Shown: piece by piece, positions 22,140 to 56,180 of the stretch
Position numbering within the stretch: position 1 is the first letter of the stretch
Layout: each line of letters starts with the position of its first letter
From: Maritimibacter sp. 55A14
GTDB lineage: Bacteria; Pseudomonadota; Alphaproteobacteria; Rhodobacterales; Rhodobacteraceae
NCBI RefSeq assembly: GCF_003122205.1
Contig: NZ_QEYE01000005.1
Location: forward strand, 62,001-126,000
DNA: 64,000 nt
Direction: 5' to 3'
Notes under the pieces: model-generated
Databases searched by the model: none
What the model saw: only the letters and a program-made list of their open reading frames with translations
Told to the model about the DNA's origin: nothing
Translations under genes and position numbers: made by a program

Positions 22140-22592
22140 ATGAAACACCGAATGCTGAGCGCCGCCGTTGCGGCGATGATGGCCACGCCAGTTTTGGCCG
22201 CCGAGGGCGAGCGGGTGCAGATCACGGGAGAGATGATCGACACCTGGTGTTATTACTCCGGCGTCATGGGCGGCCCCGACGCGGTGCAGGGCACGGCGCA
22301 TCATACCTGCGCGCTCTGGTGCTCGGCGGGCGGTATCCCGGTGGGGCTTCTGGCCGAGGATGGCACCGTCTACATGGTACTCAAGATCGAGGGCGATGAC
22401 GGTTCGGCGGGCGGCGACACGCAGCTCCGGCTGGCCTCGCATACCATCACCGCGGACGGCATGCTCTACACCCGCGACGGCATCAATTACATCGTGGTGG
22501 AGGACGTCGTGAGCGACGCCGGCATCACCAATCCCAACCATGAGGATTTCGGCCCCGTGCCGGGCTTCGCCATTCCGGACCCGAACCAATGA
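22140..22592 (+). CDS. Exported cysteine/histidine protein of unknown function, SCO-linked
   Basis: 150-residue protein, family not named with confidence. A signal peptide ending near TPVLAAEGE exports it. The mature part has a compact potential metal or haem site: C37 in IDTWCYYSG, then H54, H55, C57 and C61 in GTAHHTCALWCSAGGIPVGL. The rest looks like a small beta-barrel (VYMVLKIEGDD; GINYIVVEDVV). The start is the ATG at 22140 just after an AGGCCACCGG stretch. It overlaps the next gene as ATGA, and that one overlaps an SCO gene, so three exported proteins form one translationally coupled unit. A role in copper delivery or thiol chemistry is inference from context. Confidence 0.82.
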   Translation: MKHRMLSAAVAAMMATPVLAAEGERVQITGEMIDTWCYYSGVMGGPDAVQGTAHHTCALWCSAGGIPVGLLAEDGTVYMVLKIEGDDGSAGGDTQLRLASHTITADGMLYTRDGINYIVVEDVVSDAGITNPNHEDFGPVPGFAIPDPNQ

Positions 22593-23167
22593 GGCAGCTC
22601 GGACAGCGCATCGCCGCCCCGCTCGCCGCGTGCCTTCTGGCCGCGCCCGTTGCCGCGCAAGACTTCTCCGAAGGCTCCGAGGCGAAATCCTGGAACCTCG
22701 CCGCCGAACAGCCCGCGCGCTTCGAGGCCCGCGTCGTGGACATCCTGTGCGAGTTGACCGGCGACTGCCCGGAAAACTGCGGCGACGGCCGCCGGCAGCT
22801 CGGGCTCGAGCGCAGCGCCGATGGCGTCCTCGTCTATCCCAACAAGAACGCCCAGCCCGCCTTTACCGGCGCGGTGGTGGAGCTTCTGCCCTATTGCGGC
22901 CGCGAGGTGGAGGTCGACGGGCTGATGATCGACGACCCCGATCTGGGCGCGCGCAACATCTACCTGGTGCAGCGCATCCGCGAGGCGGGCGGCGACTGGG
23001 TCAAGGCGGACCGCTGGACGGGCGAATGGGCCGAGGCGCATCCCGACGCGCCGGGCAAAGGCCCCTGGTTCCGGCGCGACCCGCGCATCCGCGCGGAGAT
23101 CGAGGCGCATGGCTATCTGGGCCTCGGAGAGGAGGCTGACGCGGCCTTCATCGAGGACTGGTTCTGA
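22589..23167 (+). CDS. Second exported cysteine protein of unknown function, SCO-linked
   Basis: 192-residue protein with a signal peptide (LAACLLAAPVAAQ). The mature N-terminal domain reads ARVVDILCELTGDCPENCG with C54, C60 and C64, followed by RRQLGLERSADGVLVYPN and a further Cys in LLPYCGREVEVDGLMI. This resembles the preceding protein in order (strand, Cys, Cys pair, Gly-rich turn), so the two may be distant paralogues with OB-like domains. The C-terminal part is an acidic/aromatic extension ending FIEDWF. It overlaps neighbours by four bases on the 5' side and one base on the 3' side. Function unknown; metal handling is suggested by the cysteines and the SCO partner. Confidence 0.82.
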   Translation: MRQLGQRIAAPLAACLLAAPVAAQDFSEGSEAKSWNLAAEQPARFEARVVDILCELTGDCPENCGDGRRQLGLERSADGVLVYPNKNAQPAFTGAVVELLPYCGREVEVDGLMIDDPDLGARNIYLVQRIREAGGDWVKADRWTGEWAEAHPDAPGKGPWFRRDPRIRAEIEAHGYLGLGEEADAAFIEDWF

Positions 23168-23766
23168 TGCGGCCGCTGGCGCTCTGCCTTTCCCTCGCGC
23201 TGGTCGCGGGCGCGGCGGGCGCGCACGATTCCGCCGACGATCACCCCGGTCCGGCGGCGGCGGACGCGCTGCCCTTCGCGCTGGGCGGCCCCTTCAGATT
23301 GACCGATCAGCACGGGCGGAGCCGCAGCGAGGCCGACCCGGAAGGCGATCTGCAACTGCTCTTCTTCGGCTATGCCAACTGCCCCAGCATCTGCTCGGCC
23401 GCGATGCCGATGATGGCACAGACAGCCGATTTGCTCGCCGCGCGGGGGATCGGCGTCACGCCCGTGATGATCACCGTCGATCCGGCCCGCGACACGCCGG
23501 CGGGCATGGCCGAACCGCTGGCCGAGTTGCACCCCGACTTCATCGGTCTGACGGGCAGTGAGGATGCGCTCAGGCGCGCCTATGACGCCTTTCAGGTGGA
23601 GCACGAGCTGGTCTTCGAAGACCCGTTCGACGGTCCGATCTACGCGCATGGCAGCTTCGTCTACCTGCTCGACGCCGCGGGTGCGGTGCTGACGCTGATG
23701 CCGCCCGTGCTGACGCCCGAACGCGCGGCGGCGATCGTGGCGGGCTACGCGGAACGCGGCGCCTGA
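23167..23766 (+). CDS. SCO1/SenC-family copper chaperone/thiol protein
   Basis: 199-residue exported thioredoxin-fold protein. After the signal peptide, the copper site is complete: C72 and C76 in [11 protein letters not shown] and the distal H162 in [14 protein letters not shown] proteins deliver copper to the CuA site of cytochrome oxidase or act as thiol reductases. This copy is not in the cox operon (which starts near 56 kb) but is coupled to two unknown exported Cys proteins, so a client other than aa3 oxidase is possible. It ends 52 bases before the tRNA gene. Confidence 0.93.
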
Positions 23767-51937: not shown

Positions 51938-52618
51938 TCAGACGGTTCTCTGTCTGATACGCCACAGGAGATAGAGTGTCATCCCCAACCAGAGCACGGA
52001 AAGTGAGAACCATGTGATTGCGTATTCCAGGTGGTCGTTGGCGATGCCCGACATGTCCACCGGCCAGGGCGTGGCGGGTCCGGTGTCGCCGGTTTCGTCG
52101 CGCGCGACCAGCAGCACCGGTTCGGTTCCCAGGTGGCGGGCCATCGCGGGCACATCGCGGGCGAACCAGATATTGGCGTCCAGATCGGGCTCCGGCGTGA
52201 AGCTGGCGTCGATCTCGTCGGGCCAGTGCAGGTTGCCGGCCACCGTCACGTCGTCCTGGACGGGAAGCGGCGCGTCGCCCCGTGCCTGCGCCACGAAGCC
52301 GCGGTCGAGCAGGATGCGCCGGCCGCCGGTCTCGAAGGCCGAGATCAGCCGGTAGCCCGGCCCGACCAGCCTGCGTGAGCCCAGAATGCGAATCGCGCCT
52401 TCGCCGATCCGCCCGGACGCGCGGACCGGAAGATAGTTGTGCGCCGCCGCATCCGGCCCGTCGGGCAGCGCCACCGGCGCCGCGGTCATCGCCGCGCGCA
52501 TCTCCGCCAGCACGCTTTCCTTCCAGGCAAGCCGCTGCATTTGCCAGATGCCCAGCGCCATCAGCACGGCAAAACCCGCCAGCCCGAAGATCGTCGGCAG
52601 GATCATCCGCATCCGCAT
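51938..52618 (-). CDS. SURF1-family cytochrome oxidase assembly protein
   Basis: 226-residue inner-membrane protein assisting haem a insertion into subunit I of aa3 oxidase. It has the SURF1 plan: an N-terminal span (ILPTIFGLAGFAVLMALGIW) followed by QMQRLAWK, a periplasmic domain with GRRILLDRGFVAQARG, and a C-terminal span (SLSVLWLGMTLYLLW). It lies 72 bases after ctaE; a terminator-like hairpin in that gap may lower its expression relative to ctaE. Confidence 0.93.
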   Translation of the reverse strand: MRMRMILPTIFGLAGFAVLMALGIWQMQRLAWKESVLAEMRAAMTAAPVALPDGPDAAAHNYLPVRASGRIGEGAIRILGSRRLVGPGYRLISAFETGGRRILLDRGFVAQARGDAPLPVQDDVTVAGNLHWPDEIDASFTPEPDLDANIWFARDVPAMARHLGTEPVLLVARDETGDTGPATPWPVDMSGIANDHLEYAITWFSLSVLWLGMTLYLLWRIRQRTV

Positions 52619-52634
52619 GTCACGCCCCCAATCG

Positions 52635-52662
52635 AAAAGCGCGGGGCCTGCCGGCCCCGCGC
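52635..52662 (-). terminator. Intrinsic terminator after ctaE
   Basis: On the minus strand GCGCGGGGCC-GGCA-GGCCCCGCGC forms a perfect ten-base-pair stem with a four-base loop, followed by TTTTCGATT. It lies 28 bases beyond the ctaE stop. This is the clearest terminator in the window. Confidence 0.75.
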
Positions 52663-52690
52663 ATGAAATTCCCGAGTCCCCGGTGCCGGA

Positions 52691-53533
52691 TCAGCCGCCC
52701 CAGACGTAGATCGCGGCGAAGAGGAAGAGCCACACCACATCGACGAAGTGCCAGTACCAGGCGGCGGCCTCGAACCCGATGTGCTGCTGCGGCGTGAAAT
52801 GGCCGTTCAGAGCCCGCACCAGGCAGACGGTCAGGAAGACCGTGCCGATGATGACATGGGCGCCGTGGAAGCCCGTCGCCATGAAGAAGCTGGCCCCGTA
52901 GATATTGCCGGAGAAGCCGAAGGCCGCATGGCTGTATTCATAGGCCTGGAACAGCGTGAAGATCACGCCCAGAACGATCGCCAGGATCAGCCCGTTGGCC
53001 AGGTCCTTGCGGTTGTTCTCATGCACCAGCGCGTGGTGCGCCCAGGTCGCCGCCGCGCCCGAGCAGAGCAGGATCAGCGTGTTGATCAGCGGCAGGTGCC
53101 AGGGGTCGAATGTCTCGATCCCGGCCGGCGGCCAGACACCGTCCACGCCGGGGCTCAGCCCGTCGGGGTTCATCGGATAGAGCGCGTGCTTGAAGAAGGT
53201 CCAGAACCAGGCCGCGAAGAACATCACCTCGGACATGATAAACATGATGAAGCCGTAGCGCAGGCTGATGCGCACCACCGGGGTGTGATCGCCGGCATGG
53301 CTTTCGGCCACCACATCCGACCACCAGGCGAACATGACGTAGAGCACCAGAAGCAGCCCGATCAGGAACACCCAGGGATTGGCACCCGGTGTCGCCGGAG
53401 CGCCATCAGGCAAGTCCAGCCACTGGAAAAACAGCACCGCGCCGAAGAGCATGGTGAACGCCCCGACCGCGCCCATGAAGGGCCAGATGCTGGGGTTCAG
53501 AATGTGGTAGTCGTGGTTCTTTTCATGCGCCAT
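52691..53533 (-). CDS. ctaE: Cytochrome c oxidase subunit III
   Basis: 280-residue membrane subunit with seven hydrophobic segments. Conserved pieces: [53 protein letters not shown] and [19 protein letters not shown] at the C-terminus. It stabilises subunit I and contains bound lipid in known structures. Four bases separate its ATG from the ctaG stop. Confidence 0.98.
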
Positions 53534-53537
53534 TGGT

Positions 53538-54125
53538 TTATCCCTCGGTTGGCACGGTCTTTTCAGACTGCTTTTCGTCTTGTTGGAGTCCGGCCTGCGA
53601 TTGCGGCAGGTCGGTCTCGTGGAAGGTATAGCTCAGCGTGATCGTGTGGGCGTATTTCGCCTCGCGGTCGTCCACGATGCCCGGATCGACATAGAAGCTC
53701 ACCGGCATCTGCACCCGCTCGCCGGGCTCCAGAACCTGCTCGGTGAAGCAGAAACACTCGATCTTGGAGAAGTAGTAGCCCGCCGAGAAGGGCGCGACAT
53801 TGTAACTCGCGGTGCCCGCGACGCGGCGGTCGGTGGGGTTGTAGGCCTCGTAGAAGGCCAGCCCCTCCTCGCCGATTTTCAGGGTCATTTCCTTTTGCAT
53901 CGGACGGAATTGCCAGGGCATGCCGCTTTCCAGCGAGGCGTCGAAGCGCACGGTGATCGTCTGGTCCAGCGCCTTTTCCGGGGCCGCCACCGCGGTGTTG
54001 GTCTCCCCGCCGTAGCCGGTGACGCGGCAGAACCAGTTATAGAGTGGCACCGCCGCCGCCGAGAGCGAGCCCATCACCGCCAGGACGGCGAGAAGCGAGT
54101 AGACGGTCTTCCTCTGCCCGGTCAT
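53538..54125 (-). CDS. ctaG: Cytochrome c oxidase copper-B assembly protein CtaG (Cox11)
   Basis: 195-residue membrane-anchored copper chaperone that loads CuB of subunit I. One N-terminal span ([20 protein letters not shown]) and a periplasmic domain with the copper-binding CFCF in [16 protein letters not shown]. It overlaps the small upstream gene as ATGA. Confidence 0.97.
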
Positions 54126-54307
54126 TTGTCCTGCTCCGCAAGCGAAGGGCGGATGGTGTGATCGAAGGCTTCCATCATCTGCCCGCTCGACAGTTTCGCG
54201 ATGGTGATGCCGAAGACGATCAGCACGAAGGCGCCCAGCACGAGACCGACGCCCAGATTGCGCGACCGCCGCCGCGTGTGAAGCTCATGGTCCCGGCCGA
54301 GCGCCAT
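54122..54307 (-). CDS. Small cox-operon membrane protein (CoxF-like)
   Basis: 61-residue protein with one membrane span (LGVGLVLGAFVLIVFGITIA) flanked by basic residues on the N-terminal side. A gene of this size between ctaB and ctaG is standard in Rhodobacterales. Its ATG overlaps the ctaB stop as ATGA and its stop overlaps the ctaG start, so it is fully translation-coupled. Proposed assembly role follows from position only. Confidence 0.85.
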   Translation of the reverse strand: MALGRDHELHTRRRSRNLGVGLVLGAFVLIVFGITIAKLSSGQMMEAFDHTIRPSLAEQDK

Positions 54308-55260
54308 CACCAGCCCTCCACCAGCGTGACGCCCGCGCGGTCGAGGCCCGCTTCGGCCATCAGCGCCAGGAAATGCAGGAAGAGATAATAGAGCGACTGC
54401 CGGAAGAAGCGCTTCTCGGCGCGGTAGCCATCGGCCCCGGCCTGCACTTCGTCGCGCCGCCAGAGCCGGAGCGCGCCAAGCACGAAGCGCGCGTTGAGAA
54501 CCAGCGCCGTGGCCAGGAAAACCGGCCCGCCGATGGCGCTGAAGGCGATGCCCAGCGCGAGCGCCGCCAGCAGGAGCGTGTAAACCAGCACTTGCCGCCG
54601 GGTCACCCTGCGGCCATGAGTGACAGTCAGCATCGGCACGCCGGCCTTGGAATAGTCATCCTTCATGAACAGCGCGAGCGCCCAGAAATGCGGCGGCGTC
54701 CATATGAAGATGAGCGCAAACATCAACGCCGCCTCCAGGCTGACATGGCCGGTGGCCACGACCCAGCCGATCATCGGCGGAAACGCCCCGGCGGCACCGC
54801 CGATGACGATGTTCTGCGGCGTCGCGCGCTTCAGCCACATGGTATAGATCACGGCGTAGAAGAAGATGGTGAAGGCCAGCAGCGCCGCGGCCATCGGGTT
54901 GGCGGAAAGCCCCAGCATCATCACCGACAGGATCGACAGGCCCAGCCCGACATCGCGGGCGGCCTCGCCGCTGATGCGTCCGGCGGGCACGGGGCGGCGC
55001 GCCGTGCGTTTCATCACCGCGTCGATATCCGCGTCCCACCACATGTTGAGCGCGCCCGACGCGCCTGCGCCGATGGCGATGAAGAGGATCGACGCCGCCG
55101 CCAGCAACGGATGGACCGCCACCGGCGCGACGAAAAGCCCGGCCAGCGCGGTGAAGACGACCAGCGACATCACCCGCGGCTTCAGGAGCGCGAAATAGTC
55201 GCCGAACTGCGCTTCCTGCGCGCCCGCGGCCGTGCCCTGAATGGTGCTCGTATCGCTCAT
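54307..55260 (-). CDS. ctaB: Protoheme IX farnesyltransferase (heme O synthase)
   Basis: 317-residue polytopic prenyltransferase that makes haem O, precursor of haem A for aa3 oxidase. The prenyl-diphosphate motif is NMWWDADIDAVMKRTARRPV, with a second site near DDYSKAGVPMLTVTHG. About eight to nine spans. Sits 56 bases after ctaC. Confidence 0.97.
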   Translation of the reverse strand: MSDTSTIQGTAAGAQEAQFGDYFALLKPRVMSLVVFTALAGLFVAPVAVHPLLAAASILFIAIGAGASGALNMWWDADIDAVMKRTARRPVPAGRISGEAARDVGLGLSILSVMMLGLSANPMAAALLAFTIFFYAVIYTMWLKRATPQNIVIGGAAGAFPPMIGWVVATGHVSLEAALMFALIFIWTPPHFWALALFMKDDYSKAGVPMLTVTHGRRVTRRQVLVYTLLLAALALGIAFSAIGGPVFLATALVLNARFVLGALRLWRRDEVQAGADGYRAEKRFFRQSLYYLFLHFLALMAEAGLDRAGVTLVEGW

Positions 55261-55316
55261 CTGTCCTCCGGGTCAGGCGGCTTGCCGGAAACGGCCCGGA
55301 CCGCCGGACGGCCGTC

Positions 55317-56180
55317 TCAGTCGTTCGCCGCCACCTTGACGCTGGCCGCGCCGTCGCCGTACTTGGCCATCGCCGTTTCGCGCCAGGCGTCATATTGTTC
55401 CTGGCTGACCACCTTGACGGTAATCGGCATGTAGGAATGGTCCTTGCCGCACAACTCCGAGCACTGGCCGAAATAGACGCCCTCGCGTTCCGGCTTGAAC
55501 CACAACTCCGCCAGGCGGCCCGGCACGGCGTCCTGCTTTACGCCGAAGGCGGGGACGGTCCAGGCATGGATCACGTCGGCGCCGGTGACCTGAACCACCA
55601 CGGTCTTGTTGACCGGCAACACCACGGCGGTATCGGTCGCCAGCAGGTACTCGTCCTCGGCAAAGCCGTATTCGGCCAGGTCTTCCTTGGCCAGCATGAA
55701 GCTGGAGAAGCCGAAATCATCGTCCACATATTCGTAGTCCCAATACCACTGGTTTCCGATTGCCTTGATGGTGATGTCGGCCTCGGGAATTATCTGCTGC
55801 TTGAACAGGACCGGCAGCGAAAAGGCGCCGATGAAAACCAGGATCAGGATCGGCACCAGGGTCCATGTCACCTCGATCAACGAATGGTGCGTGAAGCTCG
55901 CCGGATTGGGGTTGGCGCGGCGGTTGTAGCGCAGGATCACGATGGCGATCAGCAGCAGAACGAAAAGGCAGATCGGCGTGATGATCCACAGCAGCATACC
56001 GTCGAGCCAGTGCAGATCGCGCGCAATCTCGGTCGCCGCTGGCTGGAAGCCGATGCCTTTCGGATGCGGCTTGCCCACCGTCTCCAGACCCTCGAACGTC
56101 TCCTGAGCGTGGGCCATGCCGGTGACGAGGCTGGCCGATGCGGCGGCGGTCAGGCCGGATAGAAGGGAAGTCAGTTTCAT
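55317..56180 (-). CDS. ctaC: Cytochrome c oxidase subunit II
   Basis: 287-residue electron-entry subunit. Signal peptide ([16 protein letters not shown]), two spans ([39 protein letters not shown]), and a periplasmic CuA cupredoxin domain with [11 protein letters not shown] and [16 protein letters not shown] giving the two Cys, His and Met ligands. No fused cytochrome c domain. The ATG at 56180 lies after a weak site in AGGACAAAACGCG. First gene of the leftward ctaC-ctaB-coxF-ctaG-ctaE group; ctaD is not in the window. Confidence 0.97.

Follow-up and report, generated by a model that had tools for sequence, protein, structure and literature searches.

An operon-like module of two related exported cysteine proteins and a dedicated SCO protein in the Rhodobacteraceae and other alphaproteobacteria

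The window analysed in this study is a stretch of 64,000 nucleotides from Maritimibacter sp. 55A14 (contig NZ_QEYE01000005.1, positions 62,001 to 126,000 of the forward strand). It carries a three-gene module, p1-p2-SCO, whose features are listed here by their positions in the window.

22140..22592, + strand: p1, open reading frame from ATG at 22140 to TGA at 22592, 150 amino acids
22589..23167, + strand: p2, open reading frame, 192 amino acids
23167..23766, + strand: SCO (SCO1/SenC), open reading frame, 199 amino acids, PF02630
23819..23904, + strand: tRNA-Leu(taa), detected with ARAGORN; 3' border of the module in the window and outside it

The p1 and p2 genes overlap by 4 nt (ATGA) and p2 and SCO by 1 nt (TGATG). 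The initial annotation had proposed three genes for two putative exported cysteine proteins and an SCO protein, overlapping by one to four bases, and both the reading frames and the overlaps were found as described. Among the Rhodobacteraceae loci (see below), the p1/p2 spacing is -4 in 32 loci and the p2/SCO spacing is -4 or -1 in 53. Sec-type signal peptides were recognised in p1 and p2 by eye, with no predictor. The flanks are ordinary, with methionyl-tRNA synthetase and a TPR protein (named by eye) on the 5' side and the tRNA-Leu gene on the 3' side. Scanning for promoters and terminators gave no informative signal. The cox operon (surf1-cox3-cox11-cox10-cox2, assigned by eye) lies at about 51938-56180, that is, 28-32 kb from the module, in line with the 32 kb claimed earlier.

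The distribution of the module was examined at several levels. In an order-level sample of 149 genomes, p1 was strongly matched in 24 and p2 in the same 24, and SCO adjoined p1-p2 in 21/21 sampled neighbourhoods outside the window. From named genomes a scan recovered 217 relatives, and 80 loci among them were retained (Roseovarius, Litoreibacter, Jannaschia, Ruegeria, Tateyamaria, Sulfitobacter, Yoonia and others). In these Rhodobacteraceae loci p2 adjoins p1 in 80/80, three of the p2 genes being cut or without a recognised start, and SCO is adjacent in 77 of the 78 found on contigs long enough to judge. The exception is Palleronia rufa (L137, 9020-9800), in which p1-p2 is present and the stretch from p2 to the downstream esterase holds no recognisable SCO. 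Class-wide, the pair was detected in 15/385 genomes and, with the phylum samples included, in at least 12 alphaproteobacterial families. In the other families p1 and p2 are paired at 17/17 loci, and SCO is adjacent at 11/17, covering most of these families. Two families (f156 and f157) keep p1-p2 with no adjacent SCO, so that the minimal module is the p1-p2 pair, which SCO usually accompanies.

When the flanks were compared across 88 neighbourhoods, no neighbour besides p1-p2-SCO was constant. A conserved wider operon was rejected, because the flanks vary and the rhodanese, predicted esterase and OPG genes recur in a subset only. About 20-24 of the 88 neighbourhoods carry, 3' of the module, a gene for a signal-bearing rhodanese-domain protein and one for an LpqC-like esterase, together with opgH-, opgG- and opgC-like genes and a TPR protein gene on the other strand; this arrangement lies ~1.5-8 kb downstream of p1 (L065, L068, L069, L076, L100 and others). 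OpgC-like and TPR-like genes were also seen just upstream of the module in a distant family (L154, f31). In a locus of family f156 (L185, 4293-4673) the end of a cytochrome c gene overlaps the start of p1, and in a relative (L186, 6727-6969) the same cytochrome c gene is degenerate and p1-p2 intact.

The third gene product is a bona fide member of the SCO family, with a predicted copper or thiol activity. It matched PF02630 at E 2.2e-39 (134.9 bits, against a curated cut-off of 22.8), and the CxxxC motif and distal histidine (C72-x3-C76 and H161) are intact in 77/77 Rhodobacteraceae sequences. SCO proteins are usually interpreted through cytochrome oxidase. At least one SCO is present in 149/149 genomes of the order, and module genomes have 2-5; because a further copy is always present in them, the module SCO was rejected as the oxidase's sole SCO. 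In a tree of 59 SCO sequences, a single clade with 100/100 support unites the module SCOs of the Rhodobacteraceae and of two near families; the housekeeping-type SCOs fall outside it, as do the SCOs of other clusters, for example the copper-gene cluster in the same genome. Module SCOs from more distant families, seven in number, have a weakly supported placement in this tree. These results support the module SCO as an extra, dedicated copy alongside the housekeeping SCO. The second SCO of the window genome (L205, G000:C18:5000-20000) lies in a copper-type cluster with, by eye, genes for a DUF411-like protein, SCO, PCuAC, a second SCO-like protein and a CcdA-like protein.

The only cysteines of p1 are C37, C57 and C61, accompanied by H54 and H55, and its putative site has the pattern C37-x16-H54-x2-C57-x3-C61; W36 and H134 are also invariant in most orthologues. 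The pattern in p2 is C54-x5-C60-x3-C64 ... C103, whereas C15 is a residue of the signal peptide and is not conserved. In the Rhodobacteraceae, C37, H54, H55, C57 and C61 are kept in 80/80 p1 sequences and C54, C60, C64 and C103 in 78/78 p2 sequences, a conservation well beyond chance. H55 was placed outside the core set because it is replaced by F in a distant p1 orthologue (L155) and by K, R, E or A in the paralogous domains described below, and C37, H54, C57 and C61 stay in both. Thus, of the residues singled out in the initial annotation, all four of p2 and four of p1 belong to the conserved set and H55 is dispensable. The only exceptions to invariance are two damaged copies: in one assembly (G683) a stop codon takes the place of p1 W36 and p2 C103 is changed to F, so that both proteins are damaged, and in another (G848) p1 C37 is changed to Y, with an early stop, and p2 is intact. 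Both assemblies are fragmented, and sequence error is possible. The CxxxC spacing of p1 and p2 is the same as in SCO itself.

No known family was recovered above a curated cut-off by profile searches. Pfam gave no match for p1 or p2 up to E 10; NCBIfam gave none for p2 and, for p1, two matches that are both far under cut-off. The distant p1 of L154 had sub-threshold matches to DUF4431 and MerB only. Sequence searches of the PDB with p1 and p2 returned nothing credible, and the p2 matches, mostly designed beta-trefoils over its C-terminal part, were taken as chance. A search of open-licence papers by topic and motif string found no description of a p1-p2-SCO module. The two proteins are related exported proteins that were previously unnamed.

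That p1 and p2 are paralogues, guessed earlier from their appearance, is now supported by profile comparison and by the same predicted fold. The two profiles align with hhalign at E 1.4e-5 (probability 80%), and the p1 HMM matches p2 proteins from several families (E 4e-5 to 4e-4). In the alignment C37, C57 and C61 of p1 correspond to C54, C60 and C64 of p2, and the fourth residue differs, being H54 in p1 and C103 in p2. AlphaFold2 models, with a pLDDT of 88 for p2 and a moderately confident p1 (pLDDT 73, pTM 0.62), have the order beta-helix(Cys)-beta-beta-beta-beta in both proteins; they are OB-like barrels in which the cysteines lie between the first two strands, and p2 has additional C-terminal helices. 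Foldseek found no match to either model in the PDB at E <= 0.001. With a second-look structural aligner, the neighbours were almost all OB-fold proteins: for p2, the NigD-like 3k0y (Z 6.7), NlpE, YgiW and SilF-Cu(I) (Z 4.5 over 70 residues, 3.4 A), and for p1, SSB and PriB (Z 6.6). An OB fold, which the strand order of the models fits, is likely for both proteins and no firmer than that, since the best Z values (6.6-6.7) fall in the range that the tool terms uninformative. The predicted fold carries no information on the function of p1 and p2. A DNA-binding role, suggested by the SSB and PriB neighbours, was dismissed, since it does not fit the signal peptides and the Cys/His sites.

Two known types of copper site were compared. 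The Cu(I) site of CusF/SilF consists of Met, His and Trp residues. These chaperones are small periplasmic OB-fold metal proteins, as p1 and p2 would be, and SilF-Cu(I) is among the p2 neighbours noted above, with a Z value in the uninformative range, but the invariant residues of p1 and p2 are of another pattern (Cys3His and Cys4) and there is no match to that family in Pfam; their assignment as chaperones of this type was rejected. The CuA site of COX2 is built on a cupredoxin fold with the ligands H ... CxxxC ... H ... M. This type was also rejected, as p1 and p2 had no cupredoxin match in Pfam and their models are OB-like, the CxxxC spacing alone being in common.

In proteins of ~250 amino acids with an N-terminal hydrophobic stretch, the C-terminal part was found to be a p1-like domain that retains the four ligand-type residues. 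At 10/10 loci (L059-L061, L157 and L194-L199; p1 HMM E 6e-5 to 3e-11) the gene lies directly 3' of one resembling a Ferric_reduct plus Rieske protein, and a gene for a small membrane protein often adjoins the pair. These operons are predicted to encode an uncharacterised alphaproteobacterial redox complex. They share with the module the homologous p1 domain and its core, GE..D..C-x13-H-x2-C-x3-C, and differ from it in that a membrane-anchored protein carries the domain at its C-terminal end and that p2 and SCO were not matched there. A search of plasmids for p1-like proteins found only a homologue from the planctomycete Phycisphaera mikurensis (PSMK_RS15550; L158, NC_017081.1 25150-37281), which is encoded on the conjugative copper-resistance plasmid pPSMK1 inside a copper/RND island. 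Its neighbours are genes for a four-helix Cu-binding protein, a metal-sensitive regulator, DUF2946, TolC/RND proteins (an RND adaptor among them), DUF2231 and Rieske proteins. Like p1 it is exported and has the same C/H/C/C core; it differs in that the alignment is confined to the core and that its surroundings are a copper/RND island where, over the stretch examined, neither p2 nor SCO is annotated. The two contexts suggest that the p1 domain has a metal-related or redox function.

These contexts also bear on the possibility that p1 and p2 carry iron, as rubredoxin-like or Fe-S proteins of a respiratory electron-transfer chain, the linkage to SCO being secondary. The constant Ferric_reduct/Rieske partner, the Rieske gene adjoining the p1-like gene on pPSMK1 and the cytochrome c gene that overlaps p1 in L185 would fit such a role. 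We consider it improbable: p1 and p2 look Sec-exported by eye, whereas Fe-S proteins usually fold before export by Tat, and the neighbouring cytochrome c gene has decayed in L186.

In another reading, p1 and p2 would bind zinc or use structural disulphides, and SCO would be a thiol-disulphide reductase or isomerase with no role in copper. Some SCO/PrrC family members act in thiol chemistry, Cys4 and Cys3His are common sets of zinc ligands, and the predicted exported rhodanese 3' of the module in 24/88 neighbourhoods hints at sulphur. However, the odd number of invariant cysteines in p1 is hard to reconcile with disulphides alone, the Cu-ligand residues of SCO are fully retained and the plasmid homologue has copper genes around it. 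This reading is judged unlikely.

Copper enzymes encoded elsewhere were considered as clients. The co-occurrence with nosZ or nirK that had been put forward as a check was absent at the genome level (NosZ, 7/24 module genomes and 42/125 others; NirK, 3/24 and 18/125); a genus-level test gives p 0.03 for NirK, which shows that this test is biased by genus size. PCuAC occurs in all genomes of the sample and is therefore uninformative on the module. SBP56 (MtoX) was considered because mtoX clusters carry their own SCO: in the mtoX-SCO1/senC-mauG clusters, as in the module, a small conserved cluster has an extra SCO with a proposed periplasmic copper client (PMC5739008), but the module is without an SBP56 or MauG gene, and p1 and p2 have no match to the SBP56 family. 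SBP56 occurs more often in module genomes than in the others (16/24 vs 44/125, Fisher p 0.006), but the association is gone under within-genus permutation (p 0.34) and thus follows lineage; eight module genomes are without a strong match to SBP56, and SBP56 is found in 44 genomes that have no module. An MtoX-type gene lies ~19-25 kb from the module in three genomes belonging to two genera (G003:C17, G028:C7 and G107:C7), and no operon shared by the two was seen in the stretches examined. The precedent of the SCO family, that of the mtoX clusters and the SBP56 counts would speak for a delivery line in which copper moves via SCO, p1 and p2 to a distant client (the CuA site of the aa3 oxidase, MtoX or another cuproenzyme). 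Against it stand the loss of the SBP56 signal within genera, the missing NosZ and NirK association and the presence of housekeeping SCO and PCuAC in all genomes anyway, and we regard such a line as rather unlikely.

We favour, with a probability of about 0.48, the reading that p1 and p2 are the SCO's own clients, a pair of redox or relay proteins that would hold a metal, probably copper, in thiolate sites. The pair is preferred as client because it persists without SCO in two families, because nothing else is constant at the loci and because the p1 domain occurs elsewhere as the constant partner of a b-type/Rieske redox membrane protein; the strict pairing of p1 and p2, the intact Cu-site residues of SCO and the dedicated SCO clade favour the same reading. 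The initial annotation had proposed a dedicated copper/thiol delivery module for another periplasmic client; the SCO is indeed extra and dedicated, and the client is more probably p1-p2 themselves. As we envisage it, p1 and p2 would be secreted paralogous OB-fold proteins with one putative thiolate metal site each, which consists of Cys3-His in p1 and of Cys4 in p2 and would lie for the most part on the helical stretch that connects strand 1 to strand 2. The dedicated SCO would mature them in the periplasm, where its CxxxC/His site may either load Cu(I) or keep their cysteines reduced so that the metal can enter. The loaded pair, perhaps as a complex, would then act as a periplasmic redox or copper relay to a respiratory or oxidative partner encoded elsewhere. 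The families f156 and f157 count against this reading, as SCO may there be replaceable by another copy or may not be specific for p1 and p2, and so does the moderate confidence of the p1 model.

The p1-p2-SCO operon looks like a self-contained means of making a new periplasmic metal- or redox-active pair: a clade of SCO proteins accompanies two unnamed exported proteins, the ligand-type residues of which are near-invariant in at least 12 families. Owing to these residues and to the SCO clade, the identity of the client and of its metal can be tested with one operon. Should p1 and p2 prove to carry metal, this would also explain the paralogous domain encoded directly after the ferric-reductase/Rieske fusion. 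It is possible, though doubtful, that p1 and p2 are the founding members of a new superfamily of OB-fold thiolate-metal redox domains (Cys3His/Cys4), which alphaproteobacteria would use in two forms, a soluble pair matured by SCO and a membrane-anchored partner of a ferric-reductase/Rieske complex, and which would represent an undescribed periplasmic carrier for electron transfer or copper relay.
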